From a virus: a stretch of 20,171 bases of DNA. Shown here piece by piece: positions 1-20,162 of the stretch. Below the pieces are notes generated by a model. That model did no database searches. It saw nothing but the letters and a program-made list of their open reading frames with translations, and had not been told where the DNA came from. Made by a program: the position numbers and the translations under genes. How positions within the stretch are numbered: position 1 is the stretch's first letter; each line of letters starts with the position of its first letter. Location: the IMG/VR virus record IMGVR_UViG_3300047550_002271, positions 1 through 20,171 of that record; one strand, written 5' to 3'.

Positions 1-3000
1 GTCATGGACCTCAAGATAAAAGACGCTACTGCCGCATACGTTTACGCGGACCTCATTGACAGGTTGGAGACGGCGAGGTTCACCAACCTGGAGGACAGTT
101 CGCTCAGCCCACAGGAATACGTAGACGCGCAGAACGAGCTGCTTGAATTGCAGGCCAGGATGATTAAGGAGTTCTCTGGCGTGGCAACCGCAGGCGGTCA
201 GTTCAACAACGCCCTCAAGGACATTTACCGCAACTCGCTGTTCAACTACACTGTAGATAACCAGATCAACGAGTACAAGAAGGCAAACTTCGGCTACATA
301 CCTGCTGAGGTAGAGGAAAAGTATCGCAAACTAGACGAGCAGATTAAGGAACTAAACAAGAGGATAGCAGAGGCCGAGCAACGCGCACAAGAGGCCGAGG
401 ATGCCCGAAACCTAGCCGAGATAGAGAAGGCGGCAGCAGAAGACAAGCTCGCAAACATTGACCTCAAGGACACCAACGATGCGGCCGCTGAGGTGCTGAA
501 GTTTAAGGGCAAGTCGGTGTCGTTTAAGGACTCAAACGGCAAGCCCATCAACATGCCCAAGGGCACGTGGTCCAAGATTGTAGACGCGGCAGCCAACGCC
601 GTAAAGAACATAAAGAACAAGCCGTCGCTTGTGTCCAAGGCAAGCCTGTCTGGAGCGGCATCAAACGCGGCACTCGACGCGGCACTGGCCACGGTGCGTG
701 CAGAGCCATGGTTCCAGTCCCTGTCCGACGCGGACAAGAGGGCTGTAGAGGACCAGTTCCAGAGCGTGACCCCTGGCAAGATATCTATCCCGTCCTCTTT
801 GATCCGTGAGATCGTAGAGAACGGCGTTGCGGACATGAACGACCTGGTCACCAAGGTTAGGGAGCGCATGTCTGAGAAGTATCCCAACGCCACAGACCGC
901 CAGATACGCGACGCGATAAGCGGCTACGGCCGTGAGCGTTCGTTGACCCGCGACGACATGCAGCGTGAGATCGGAAGGCTCCGCAACATCGGGCGCATGG
1001 AGTCTCGACTTGAGGACATCCGCAGGGGGATAGTCAAGGCCAAGAATCCACAGGAGAGGGCAAAACTTACCGACAAGGAGGAGCAGTTAAAGCTAGACAT
1101 ACAGGACGCATATGAGGCGGCAGGCATTGCCGACGCGCAGAGGCTTATAAACGCCAAGCGGAACGCCCAGAAGCGTATCACAGAGCTGGAGCGCAGACTT
1201 GCAGAGGGCGACTTCACCAAACAGGAGCGAAAGAAAGTTAAGGAGGACGAGGAGTTGGCACAGCTGCGTGCAGAGCGTCAGACCTTACAGAACCAGTTCG
1301 ACAAAGAGCTTGACAGGATCAAGAAACAGAACAGTCCTACCAAGTTTTGGGACAACATGGGTGGTTTCTGGGAAATCTCTCGTTTGTTGCAGGCCACCTT
1401 TGACTTGTCCGCAGTACTTGTGCAGGGATTGAAGTTGACCGTGTCACACCCCGTGCATGCCTCTAGATCTTTTACTAAGACAGCAGAACACTTTCTTAGC
1501 GAGAGTAAGGCCCGTAAGTGGGGTGAGTTTATTAAGGCCCAGCCATACTACGAGGAGATGATAAAGGCGGGACTGTCTTTGTCTGAATATGACGCATCGC
1601 TTTCTGAAAAGGAAGAGGGTTTCTTGGGTGGCGTGGGTAATATGATGTGGGACTACCTTGTGTTGCCTTTCAAGATGTTTGGCGACAAGGGATATACTCG
1701 GGTTGCCCAGGCAAACCCATTCAAGGCGTTTGAACGTGCTGGTATTGGATATCTAAACACCATGCGCGTACTTCGATACCTTGACGGTCAAAAAATGTTG
1801 CAGGACAGGGGAAAGACCTTTGAGACCGATCCAGACTCATTCAAGGCTGTGGCAAACGAGGTTAATAGCTTTACGGGACGTTCGTCACTTGGTCCATTGG
1901 AAAAGAATGCTGGGCTTTTGTCTAAGATATTCTACTCGCCAAAGAACTGGGCGTCTCAGTTAAAAACATCAACTATCGGTTTTCCTATATTCCTTTTGAC
2001 TTTAAAGGACAAGGGCACATTAATGCCGTCGGTGGCTCAAAAGATGGCTATGCGCGACTGGATCGTATGGTTTGTTGTTACCGCAGGAGTCGTTAAGATG
2101 GTTGCAGAAAAGGCTAACGAGGACGATGAAGACGAGATCGAGGTTGATATGAACCCGCTTAGCTCTAAGTTTGGTAAGATCCGATTGGGTAGCATATACG
2201 TAGACCCTTGGGGTGGTTTTATCCAGCACATCGTTTTACAGGCCCGTCTTTACAACGAGGCTATGGTGCGCGGTGGTGAAGAGAAAAAGCTAGGAGATTA
2301 TAACACGCCTACACGTGGTGGCTTGATGGCAGAGTTTGCCAAGAACAAGCTACACCCGACAGCCAGTCTTTTGGTAGGATACCTTACCACGCACGAGGAG
2401 GACGGCAAGCGTGTGGACGCCTATGGCAACGACTTTATTTGGAGCGATGAGTTACAGGAGCGTGTTGTTCCTATGATCGGCAGCACACTCGCCGAGATAT
2501 ACAAGGAGGAGCCCAACCTCAAGGGCGCATTCCTGGGTGCGTATGCATTCCTTGGTGCCGGCGTCAACGTGTACAAGAATGAGAAGGTTGCTCCTAAGTT
2601 TGATAGCCCAGAAACTGCTAGTATGATGAAGGAATACAAGCCTAAGGGATTGCCAGACATCAAGAAGGATACGTTTGCGGTTCCTTTATCAGACGAAGAG
2701 TTAATACAGCTGAACGTAAACTACCGTAAGAAGGCTACCGCTATTCTCGACGTGTATTCAGCTACTAAGCCGGCTGAGGACAAAGACATGGAGACGGCTA
2801 AGTTTAAGAAGCTCACTGACAGTCAACTCGAAGAGGCCAGGGCACAGGCCGTCAAGAAGGGTGTACAGGAGGCGGACCTCGACAAGGAGTCAGAACGCAT
2901 TGCGCTTGAGAATAAAAAGAGAGACAGGATATCTGACAGCATAGGCGATCTGACCAGGTTAGCTAAAGACGCAGCCGCTTATGAGTACTTCAAAGCCCTT

Positions 3001-3084
3001 GGAAAGCGCATCCCGCCTACTATTGAAGACGCCGCTAAAGACTACGAAAAAAAGTTGAAGGATTTACAAAAGGAACTCGACTGA
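1..3084 (+). CDS. Large internal virion / polyvalent-type phage protein (5' partial)
   Basis: The frame is open from base 1; the first Met is at position 4, but the protein very probably begins upstream, so this is the C-terminal part (1026 residues visible). Residues about 105-150 and 325-440 are charged heptad-rich coiled coils. A hydrophobic segment near residues 683-704 (WIVWFVVTAGVV) is followed by an acidic patch and by 'FGKIRLGSIYVDPWGGF' (about 723-739). That pattern resembles the C-terminal region of very long phage 'large polyvalent' or internal virion proteins, which are packaged in the head and ejected with DNA in podovirus-like phages; I recall it from such proteins but cannot run a search. 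The last 150 residues are again charged and helical. It is followed 21 nt later by a small membrane protein gene. The role (ejection or membrane conduit) is inference from family resemblance; no catalytic motif was recognised in the visible part. Confidence 0.7.
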   Translation, partial: VMDLKIKDATAAYVYADLIDRLETARFTNLEDSSLSPQEYVDAQNELLELQARMIKEFSGVATAGGQFNNALKDIYRNSLFNYTVDNQINEYKKANFGYIPAEVEEKYRKLDEQIKELNKRIAEAEQRAQEAEDARNLAEIEKAAAEDKLANIDLKDTNDAAAEVLKFKGKSVSFKDSNGKPINMPKGTWSKIVDAAANAVKNIKNKPSLVSKASLSGAASNAALDAALATVRAEPWFQSLSDADKRAVEDQFQSVTPGKISIPSSLIREIVENGVADMNDLVTKVRERMSEKYPNATDRQIRDAISGYGRERSLTRDDMQREIGRLRNIGRMESRLEDIRRGIVKAKNPQERAKLTDKEEQLKLDIQDAYEAAGIADAQRLINAKRNAQKRITELERRLAEGDFTKQERKKVKEDEELAQLRAERQTLQNQFDKELDRIKKQNSPTKFWDNMGGFWEISRLLQATFDLSAVLVQGLKLTVSHPVHASRSFTKTAEHFLSESKARKWGEFIKAQPYYEEMIKAGLSLSEYDASLSEKEEGFLGGVGNMMWDYLVLPFKMFGDKGYTRVAQANPFKAFERAGIGYLNTMRVLRYLDGQKMLQDRGKTFETDPDSFKAVANEVNSFTGRSSLGPLEKNAGLLSKIFYSPKNWASQLKTSTIGFPIFLLTLKDKGTLMPSVAQKMAMRDWIVWFVVTAGVVKMVAEKANEDDEDEIEVDMNPLSSKFGKIRLGSIYVDPWGGFIQHIVLQARLYNEAMVRGGEEKKLGDYNTPTRGGLMAEFAKNKLHPTASLLVGYLTTHEEDGKRVDAYGNDFIWSDELQERVVPMIGSTLAEIYKEEPNLKGAFLGAYAFLGAGVNVYKNEKVAPKFDSPETASMMKEYKPKGLPDIKKDTFAVPLSDEELIQLNVNYRKKATAILDVYSATKPAEDKDMETAKFKKLTDSQLEEARAQAVKKGVQEADLDKESERIALENKKRDRISDSIGDLTRLAKDAAAYEYFKALGKRIPPTIEDAAKDYEKKLKDLQKELD

Positions 3085-19167: not shown

Positions 19168-19250
19168 ATTGTATGTTGTTGGTAAAGACTACAGGCTGTC
19201 ACCCTGTAGTTTCGTCTATTGAAGACTCGTCAGTTTACCTAGGCTACAAT
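19168..19250 (-). ncRNA. Hammerhead self-cleaving ribozyme (type I topology)
   Basis: Read on the - strand. Stem I: GGTAAA (19239-19234) with TTTACC (19186-19181). Core CTGACGA (19233-19227). Stem II: GTCT (19226-19223), loop TCAAT, AGAC (19217-19214). Core GAAA (19213-19210). Stem III: CTACAGG (19209-19203), 7-nt loop, CCTGTAG (19195-19189). Then TC (19188-19187), completing a GUC triplet with cleavage after 19187. All invariant nucleotides of the hammerhead (CUGANGA, GAAA, UH) and the closing pairs are present. An outer stem I helix, ATTGTA (19250-19245) with TACAAT (19173-19168), leaves an internal loop (GCCTA / AACAACA) suited to contact loop II. The 5' strand of stem I begins in the stop codon of the DUF932 gene. 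Activity is inferred; the structure is seen. Confidence 0.9.
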
Positions 19251-20162
19251 CTTAGCGAGAATGTCGAAGGCCTGCGCGTCCATTGCGCCTGCCTGTCCTG
19301 TCATCTTAGCCTCGATACGGCCGTTCTCGCGGTTAGGAGCCGAGGCCTTGTGGGTGGTGTAGTGAGTCACCCCGCTCATCAGTCCCCACAGCGAGCCGCC
19401 CTTGTATGAAGTCTCGCGGCGTATGCTGTCGAGTAGGTCGCTAGCAATGTTAAACTTGCGGGCGCTGTGGTCGGCGCGTATCGACTTCTCGGTCTTGGTA
19501 ATGTCGACGTCGGTCAACTGCTGCACCACGCTGCGCACAATCTCGGGCGTCATCGGGGCGCTAGCCATCTTGAAGAACGTGTCGTACAGGCTCTCGTCGG
19601 CCTTCACTATACCGAGTATTTGCTGCTTAGCTGCCTCAATACGTTCGCGCATGCTAGAGGTGTGGCGTACGCGGCTCATGGCCTTGTCGCGGGCTGCCCT
19701 GTAGAAGGTGTTCTGACAGCTAATGGTGTAGCCTAGCGACCCGAAGCAAACGCTGCTGCTGCCGTCAAATGAGTTGAGAGCGGTCACGTACTTTTCTACG
19801 CGGTCGTTGTTGTCACCGATACCGGTAACGCTGCCCGCCGATAGTTGCAGGTAGACTTTCTTGCCGCCGTTCAGAGCGCCGCCCTTGTGAATGCTGTAGC
19901 CAAACTCGCCTGCAATGGCCTCGCATAGTTCAGCTAGTTCTTCGTTCTGAAACACCGCGTACTGCTCTGACATGACGCCTAGCACGGCGCCGTTGTCGGC
20001 CCGTTGGTTGGCCCACGCGCTGTCGACAGGCGTGCCGTCGGGGGTGTAGAGTTGTACCTTGTTTACGTGCCAATCGAGGCCTGTAGCTTGGAGGGTTTCG
20101 ATTGTCTTAGCGCCTGTGGCGATGTTTGACAGCATGCTGTCGAGATTGAAATTGTTGTTCAT
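19239..20162 (-). CDS. DUF932 phage/plasmid-like protein
   Basis: 307 aa, complete, with the ATG 9 nt from the window edge. It matches the DUF932 / 'phage-plasmid-like protein TIGR03299' family: GLDWHVNKVQLYTPDG near the start (W-x-V), DNGAVLGVMSEQYAVFQNEE (the typical G.V...Y...QN.E), GGKKVYLQL and YVTALNSFDGSSSV, CFGSLGYTISCQNT with a following R-rich segment, and a helical C terminus. The biochemical role of this family is not established; it is widespread in phages, plasmids and other mobile elements. Its last codons and stop codon (TAG at 19241-19239) form part of the hammerhead stem I, so translation through this end should affect ribozyme folding. The visible leader is CAACACATT. Confidence 0.85.
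   Translation of the reverse strand: MNNNFNLDSMLSNIATGAKTIETLQATGLDWHVNKVQLYTPDGTPVDSAWANQRADNGAVLGVMSEQYAVFQNEELAELCEAIAGEFGYSIHKGGALNGGKKVYLQLSAGSVTGIGDNNDRVEKYVTALNSFDGSSSVCFGSLGYTISCQNTFYRAARDKAMSRVRHTSSMRERIEAAKQQILGIVKADESLYDTFFKMASAPMTPEIVRSVVQQLTDVDITKTEKSIRADHSARKFNIASDLLDSIRRETSYKGGSLWGLMSGVTHYTTHKASAPNRENGRIEAKMTGQAGAMDAQAFDILAKIVA

Follow-up and report, generated by a model that had tools for sequence, protein, structure and literature searches.

A type I hammerhead ribozyme and a small tRNA-like element occupy the same gene junctions in related phages

The window (the whole stretch of viral DNA analysed here, 20,171 nt) carries on its minus strand a DUF932 gene followed by a short ORF with no match in Pfam or PHROGs, and between these two genes lies a complete type I hammerhead ribozyme, as had been proposed by a sequence-only reading of this DNA (Table 1). 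Read directly from 19239 to 19181, the minus strand gives GGUAAA-CUGACGA-GUCU-UCAAU-AGAC-GAA-ACUACAGG-GUGACAG-CCUGUAGU-C^UUUACC. Every core letter claimed by that reading is present, namely C3U4G5A6N7G8A9, G12A13A14, A15.1-U16.1 and H17, and these letters are invariant or nearly so across 35 homologues; the closing pairs that it named are also found, and its predicted cut falls where the motif itself places it. The three helices, which had been described as 6, 4 and 7 bp (6, 4 and 8 bp when A15.1-U16.1 is included), are recovered together with a distal AUUGUA/UACAAU helix, and nothing else, in both the MFE and the centroid structures, and the 59-nt core folded alone gives the same three helices by both methods. 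In the window fold, stem I is open and stems II and III are closed by loops, which is the type I layout. The element is almost certainly a hammerhead and would very likely cleave in vivo. Elsewhere in the window, a NinG homologue points most closely to Flavobacterium phages (47% identity), from which a Bacteroidota host can only be guessed; no relatives of the exonuclease were found among the named phages searched. A 1026-aa ORF (4-3084, plus strand) has no match in Pfam, PHROGs or named phages.

Table 1. Features of the DUF932 junction, in window coordinates, and locations of a structured RNA found downstream of tRNA-like elements in other records.
Feature	Position	Strand	Basis or remark
Upstream gene, 307-aa DUF932 protein (family F10)	19239..20162	-	stop codon overlaps the ribozyme
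Complete type I hammerhead ribozyme, 59 nt	19181..19239	-	direct reading, fold, covariation, orthologues L006, L007 and L010
Stem I, 5' strand GGUAAA	19234..19239	-	G 19239, the first base of stem I, is the final base of the DUF932 stop UAG
Core CUGACGA (C3-A9)	19227..19233	-	invariant except N7 in 35 homologues
Stem II GUCU/AGAC with 5-nt loop UCAAU	19214..19226	-	GUCU 19226-19223, UCAAU 19222-19218, AGAC 19217-19214
Core G12 A13 A14 (GAA)	19211..19213	-	direct reading
Stem III, A15.1-U16.1 plus 7 bp, loop GUGACAG	19188..19210	-	direct reading, fold, covariation
Stem III strands	ACUACAGG 19210-19203; loop GUGACAG 19202-19196; CCUGUAGU 19195-19188	-	
Predicted cleavage site, C17 (19187) ^ U1.1 (19186)	19186..19187	-	position deduced from the hammerhead model
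Stem I, 3' strand UUUACC	19181..19186	-	predicted 5' end of the downstream RNA
3' strand UACAAU of possible distal stem I helix	19168..19173	-	partner 19245-19250; not conserved in orthologues
Downstream ORF, 84 aa	18910..19164	-	start codon 22 nt past the predicted cut
Structured RNA of about 75 nt (loci among others)	L014:8295-8405	-	
	L031:3404-3480		
	L042:8383-8493	-	
	L054:1327-1400		
	L204:613-690		

Relatives of the locus have also been found. The DUF932 protein is encoded on eleven contigs with 86-98% identity to that of the window, and orthologous hammerheads lie at this junction in L006, in its near-copy L007 and in L010. Stem II reads GUCU/AGAC in the window and GACU/AGUC or GGCU/AGCC in the orthologues, all of which pair; the sequence of stem III also differs with its pairing kept, and the core bases are intact throughout. 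The orthologues thus preserve the stems by compensatory changes, stems broken without compensation having been named beforehand as one outcome that would speak against the ribozyme. In an alignment of 35 hammerheads, 97.4% of the cells are paired and double-sided changes occur in 11 of 15 pairs; the covariation score is 0.586 against 0.127 in shuffled alignments (reached in 0 of 500 shuffles), and pairing falls below 40% when the partner is shifted by one column. In dinucleotide-shuffled windows, a loose descriptor (stems of at least 4, 3 and 4 bp) was matched in 1 of 300 and a strict one, requiring the actual 6, 4 and 7 bp, in none of 300. Across 1.86 Mb of loci, descriptor matches numbered 272 on the real DNA and 0 on the reversed DNA, the real count being enriched because many of these loci were retrieved by hammerhead patterns, so that only the reversed-DNA side of this control is unbiased. 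A chance match had been judged very unlikely from the sequence, and the shuffles, the reversed DNA, the covariation and the orthologues exclude a chance origin.

Rfam gave a different picture. No match in the window reached the gathering score, which is a cut-off set by the database rather than a property of hammerhead structure or catalysis. At permissive E-values, RAGATH-1-hammerhead (RF03152; 22.6 bits, gathering 56.3, E 0.086) and Hammerhead_3 (RF00008; 21.5 bits, gathering 48.5, E 0.02) were the only, and weak, hammerhead matches; the significant type I match that had been expected failed to appear, the type I model giving none in the window even at permissive E-values. The core of both families is that of the window, whose hammerhead differs in being type I with an open stem I and in scoring far below their gathering scores. 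Since these thresholds are not reached, standard automatic annotation would miss this hammerhead. The covariance model R1 scores it at 66 bits, a value that is not independent because the window belongs to the training set of R1; on the cultured phages elemoA_7-9A, HTVC019P and Jormungand, where the score is independent of training, the same model gives 47-60 bits.

A further claim of the sequence-only reading concerned a distal 6-bp extension of stem I as the site of contact with loop II. The helix AUUGUA/UACAAU is indeed present in the window, but it is not conserved. Its 5' strand is conserved C-terminal coding sequence of DUF932 (KIVA-stop), kept also where there is no hammerhead, and its exact 3' partner is absent from the other orthologous hammerheads G005 and G009. 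On the other hand, among 241 hammerheads the length of loop II is strongly associated with the first base after stem I, a 4-nt loop being followed by T in 23 of 34 cases and a 5-nt loop in 2 of 155 (Fisher p 3e-19, inflated by the relatedness of the sequences), and the window is typical in this respect, with UCAAU as loop II and AAC as flank. This association suggests that the contact of loop II more likely involves the nucleotides directly 3' of stem I than the distal helix.

Hammerheads have been described before in comparable positions. In prophages they occur in series flanking genes, their proposed role being to divide long phage transcripts into mRNAs of gene length, and several of the phage type self-cleave in vitro and in E. 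coli. Another example is a halovirus hammerhead that precedes a start codon by 13 nt; a transcript 5' end maps no more than 3 nt from its predicted cut (these cases being taken from the compared part of the text of Perreault et al., 2011, PMC3088659). The intercistronic arrangement, of which the sequence-only reading knew no case between a DUF932 gene and a train of small genes, therefore has published antecedents. Like that of the window, the hammerheads in the compared text are intergenic and often several per locus; this text has no alternative junction element, no stop-codon overlap, and neither the present contig family nor a DUF932 context (Perreault et al., 2011). The purpose of prokaryotic hammerheads has been described as an open question (PMC6155905). 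In our pattern scan of viral contigs, at least 120 stretches were retrieved for one sub-pattern alone, so hammerheads of the window's kind are common in phages, and series of up to seven or eight exist on several contigs. L022, L023, L024, L025 and L038 each bear about four to eight at successive gene junctions. The window ribozyme taken alone being a further member of a published kind, the interest of the locus lies in the exchange of the ribozyme with an armless tRNA mimic.

This exchange is seen at the DUF932 junction of eight other relatives, where a mini-tRNA of 44-46 nt stands in place of the hammerhead behind a DUF932 protein that is up to 98% identical; no mini-tRNA was found within the window itself. 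The element consists of a 7-bp acceptor-like stem, a linker of 11-13 nt in which UGG is invariant, and a T arm of 6 bp closed by the loop UUCGANU; it has neither D arm nor anticodon arm. The 7-bp acceptor stem and the T54-T55-C56-R57-A58 loop are as in tRNA, with variant T loops in some copies. These variants (CUCGUUU, CUCGACU and UUCGCUU) are found at F8, F28 and F56 junctions, and both stems are kept in them. The linker GG and the letters of the T loop correspond to those building the tRNA elbow. In an alignment of 12 distinct rows, 99.4% of positions are paired and 7 of 13 pairs show compensatory changes, which fall in both stems. Searches of the 18 regions and the window gave 29 mini-tRNAs against 0 on reversed DNA (47 against 3 in 2.0 Mb). 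None of them was called by ARAGORN, or as tRNA by Rfam, and the nearest Rfam match is mascRNA-menRNA (RF01684) at L012:813-870, with 30.7 bits against a gathering score of 42.5. The mini-tRNA is a tRNA mimic and not a tRNA, and these elements form a group of phage RNAs missed by both programs.

Some known systems resemble the mini-tRNA. The mascRNA and menRNA of MALAT1 and NEAT1 are likewise small tRNA-like RNAs that end a longer transcript and are cut out by tRNA enzymes; they are mammalian and nuclear, whereas the phage element is smaller, intergenic and only predicted to be cleaved. Another example is found in mitochondria, where tRNA punctuation and the t-elements of plants place intergenic tRNAs or tRNA-like structures as marks for cuts by tRNA nucleases in polycistronic RNA. 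The phage mini-tRNA differs from these in having no D and anticodon arms and in being swapped for a self-cleaving ribozyme in relatives. No description of mini-tRNAs alternating with hammerheads was found in the literature searched, which leaves subscription journals mostly outside and so does not prove novelty. Two candidates were set aside. The single match of the mini-tRNA pattern in species genomes, on a Verrucomicrobia contig, was read as the 3' end of an ordinary tRNA or tmRNA; and a BLAST match in Acinetobacter phage ZZ1 (L210:1491-1524) was left out because it adjoins a tRNA cluster and its layout differs. The ZZ1 segment is short and resembles an acceptor stem plus T arm, but with a shorter linker; it is placed just after the tRNA cluster and before a small gene.

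Whole records were searched with covariance models of both elements, the gene map covering the 18 regions and the window, and both were found to cluster close to a single variable block made up of small genes. In three gene families the gene end always carries a hammerhead or a mini-tRNA (29 of 29 junctions, counts that include some near-copy contigs): F8, with 7 hammerheads and 6 mini-tRNAs (13/13 occupied); F10, which is DUF932, with 4 hammerheads (window, G005, G006 and G009) and 8 mini-tRNAs (12/12); and F51, with 2 of each (4/4). In a within-genome permutation on 14 representative contigs, one per near-identical group, 61 pairs of same-family junctions had both members occupied by an element, against 16.6 expected (reached in 0 of 5000 permutations), an excess that arises because the elements concentrate behind particular genes; the families holding both kinds, three in these contigs, are not above the permutation mean of 4.1. 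The DUF932 tree needs three changes between hammerhead and mini-tRNA, and well-supported branches force at least two of these. In the F8 tree one change suffices, and the pattern fits a single change followed by descent. Both elements also co-occur on other contigs (L083, L084, L089 and L197).

Taken as a whole, the best explanation, which is probably correct, is that both elements are cleavage sites splitting polycistronic phage mRNA. In the window, the type I hammerhead would cut the polycistronic RNA in cis between DUF932 and the next gene. The folded ribozyme would then remain as a structured 3' end of the DUF932 message, and a new RNA, the downstream message, would start with a leader of 22 nt; an effect on expression may be expected. 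Hammerhead chemistry leaves a 5'-OH and a 2',3'-cyclic phosphate. In the sister phages, the mini-tRNA would do the same job at the same DUF932 junction. Its 7-bp acceptor stem would stack coaxially on the T arm, the conserved GG of the linker docking into the T loop, and host tRNA-processing enzymes would recognise the whole. Its recognition by RNase P or RNase Z is presumed from the minihelix substrates that these nucleases accept, and the missing D and anticodon arms, together with the atypical T loops of some copies (CUCGUUU, UUCGCUU), speak against it. A cut by RNase Z, on the 3' side, would mirror the hammerhead, in that the upstream message would keep the structure and the downstream message would start with a short leader, whereas a cut by RNase P, on the 5' side, would often fall within or before the upstream stop codon and remove it; for these reasons RNase Z appears the more likely nuclease. 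That hammerhead and mini-tRNA share one mRNA-cutting role is reasonably likely, and on balance we lean towards the broader view that interchangeable RNA-cleavage modules mark the ends of particular phage genes, two unrelated catalytic solutions serving one function of mRNA punctuation. The presence of a ribozyme or a tRNA mimic behind upstream proteins that are 98% identical points to RNA cleavage as the selected function of the junction, and the natural replacement series at orthologous junctions makes this function directly testable by module swap. Neighbouring genes change along with the element, so whole-cassette recombination could move the elements without selection for equivalence.

The placement of both elements relative to stop codons bears on how cleavage might be controlled. 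A census covered 241 distinct hammerheads. For 201 of them an upstream ORF terminates close to the core, and in 139 of these 201 its stop codon shares bases with stem I or the core, the UGA of the invariant CUGA being itself the stop in 30. This overlap is partly built in and its count inflated, since one fetching pattern, the second, demanded TAA before the core. The next ATG follows the cut at a median distance of 28 nt. With near-copies included, the acceptor strand of the mini-tRNA overlaps the stop codon in 24 of 39 cases, and the next ATG mostly lies 13-37 nt downstream. Such overlaps would suit a regulated cleavage in which a ribosome terminating at a stop inside stem I or the core blocks folding, so that cleavage reports upstream translation. 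This possibility, a refinement of the best explanation and not an exclusive alternative to it, is unlikely: the overlap may merely reflect compact genomes, and where a mini-tRNA occupies the DUF932 junction, the stop precedes it by 4-9 nt.

It is also quite unlikely that only the hammerhead is a processing site and that the mini-tRNA has another role, for example in integration, as an attP or tRNA-gene remnant, or as an uncut protector of 3' ends. Partial tRNA genes in viruses can indeed be attP sites, as in haloviruses (PMC7230728), and folding-only z-scores are modest for some mini-tRNAs. Against this, mini-tRNAs occur in one to four copies per contig, at different gene ends and on the coding strand, both of their stems are maintained by compensatory changes, sister phages carry a hammerhead at the same gene ends, and the armless layout does not resemble that of ordinary tRNA gene fragments serving as attachment sites. 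Very unlikely is the view that the two elements are chiefly patches for recombination, or hitchhikers, at the borders of cassettes, neutral or selfish and spread by gene shuffling. The gene order around them is heavily shuffled, and stem I, the core and a ACAGGCAUGGUG block are well conserved; yet in both elements the stem sequences vary widely between copies with their pairing maintained, which a patch of homology would not need, and the elements are tied to the ends of F8, F10 and F51 genes without exception, on the coding strand and at the stop codon. Finally, that the window hammerhead is a chance resemblance or an inactive relic is extremely improbable, since the unreached Rfam gathering score is outweighed by the controls against chance and by core bases intact in the window and its orthologues.

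Some cultured phages carry the same kind of hammerhead, so that the hammerhead half of the proposal can be tested in the laboratory now. In Flavobacterium phage elemoA_7-9A (NC_055852.1), it lies at L208:17290-17347 on the minus strand, between gp67 and gp69, and scores 59.5 bits; gp68, an annotated ORF on the opposite strand, overlaps it and may be spurious. In the Pelagibacter phages HTVC019P and Jormungand, a related hammerhead (L209:2948-3008 and L211:2998-3058) has A in place of C at position 17 and is located upstream of a transcriptional regulator and an integrase gene. Neither hammerhead nor mini-tRNA was found in Flavobacterium phage hattifnatt9-1. Another observation concerns mini-tRNAs whose linker is UUGGAGCAAG or AUGGAGCAAG, which are directly followed on their 3' side by a structured, conserved RNA about 75 nt in length (Table 1); it has no Rfam match above chance, and its three predicted hairpins show double-sided changes in 7 of 18 pairs.
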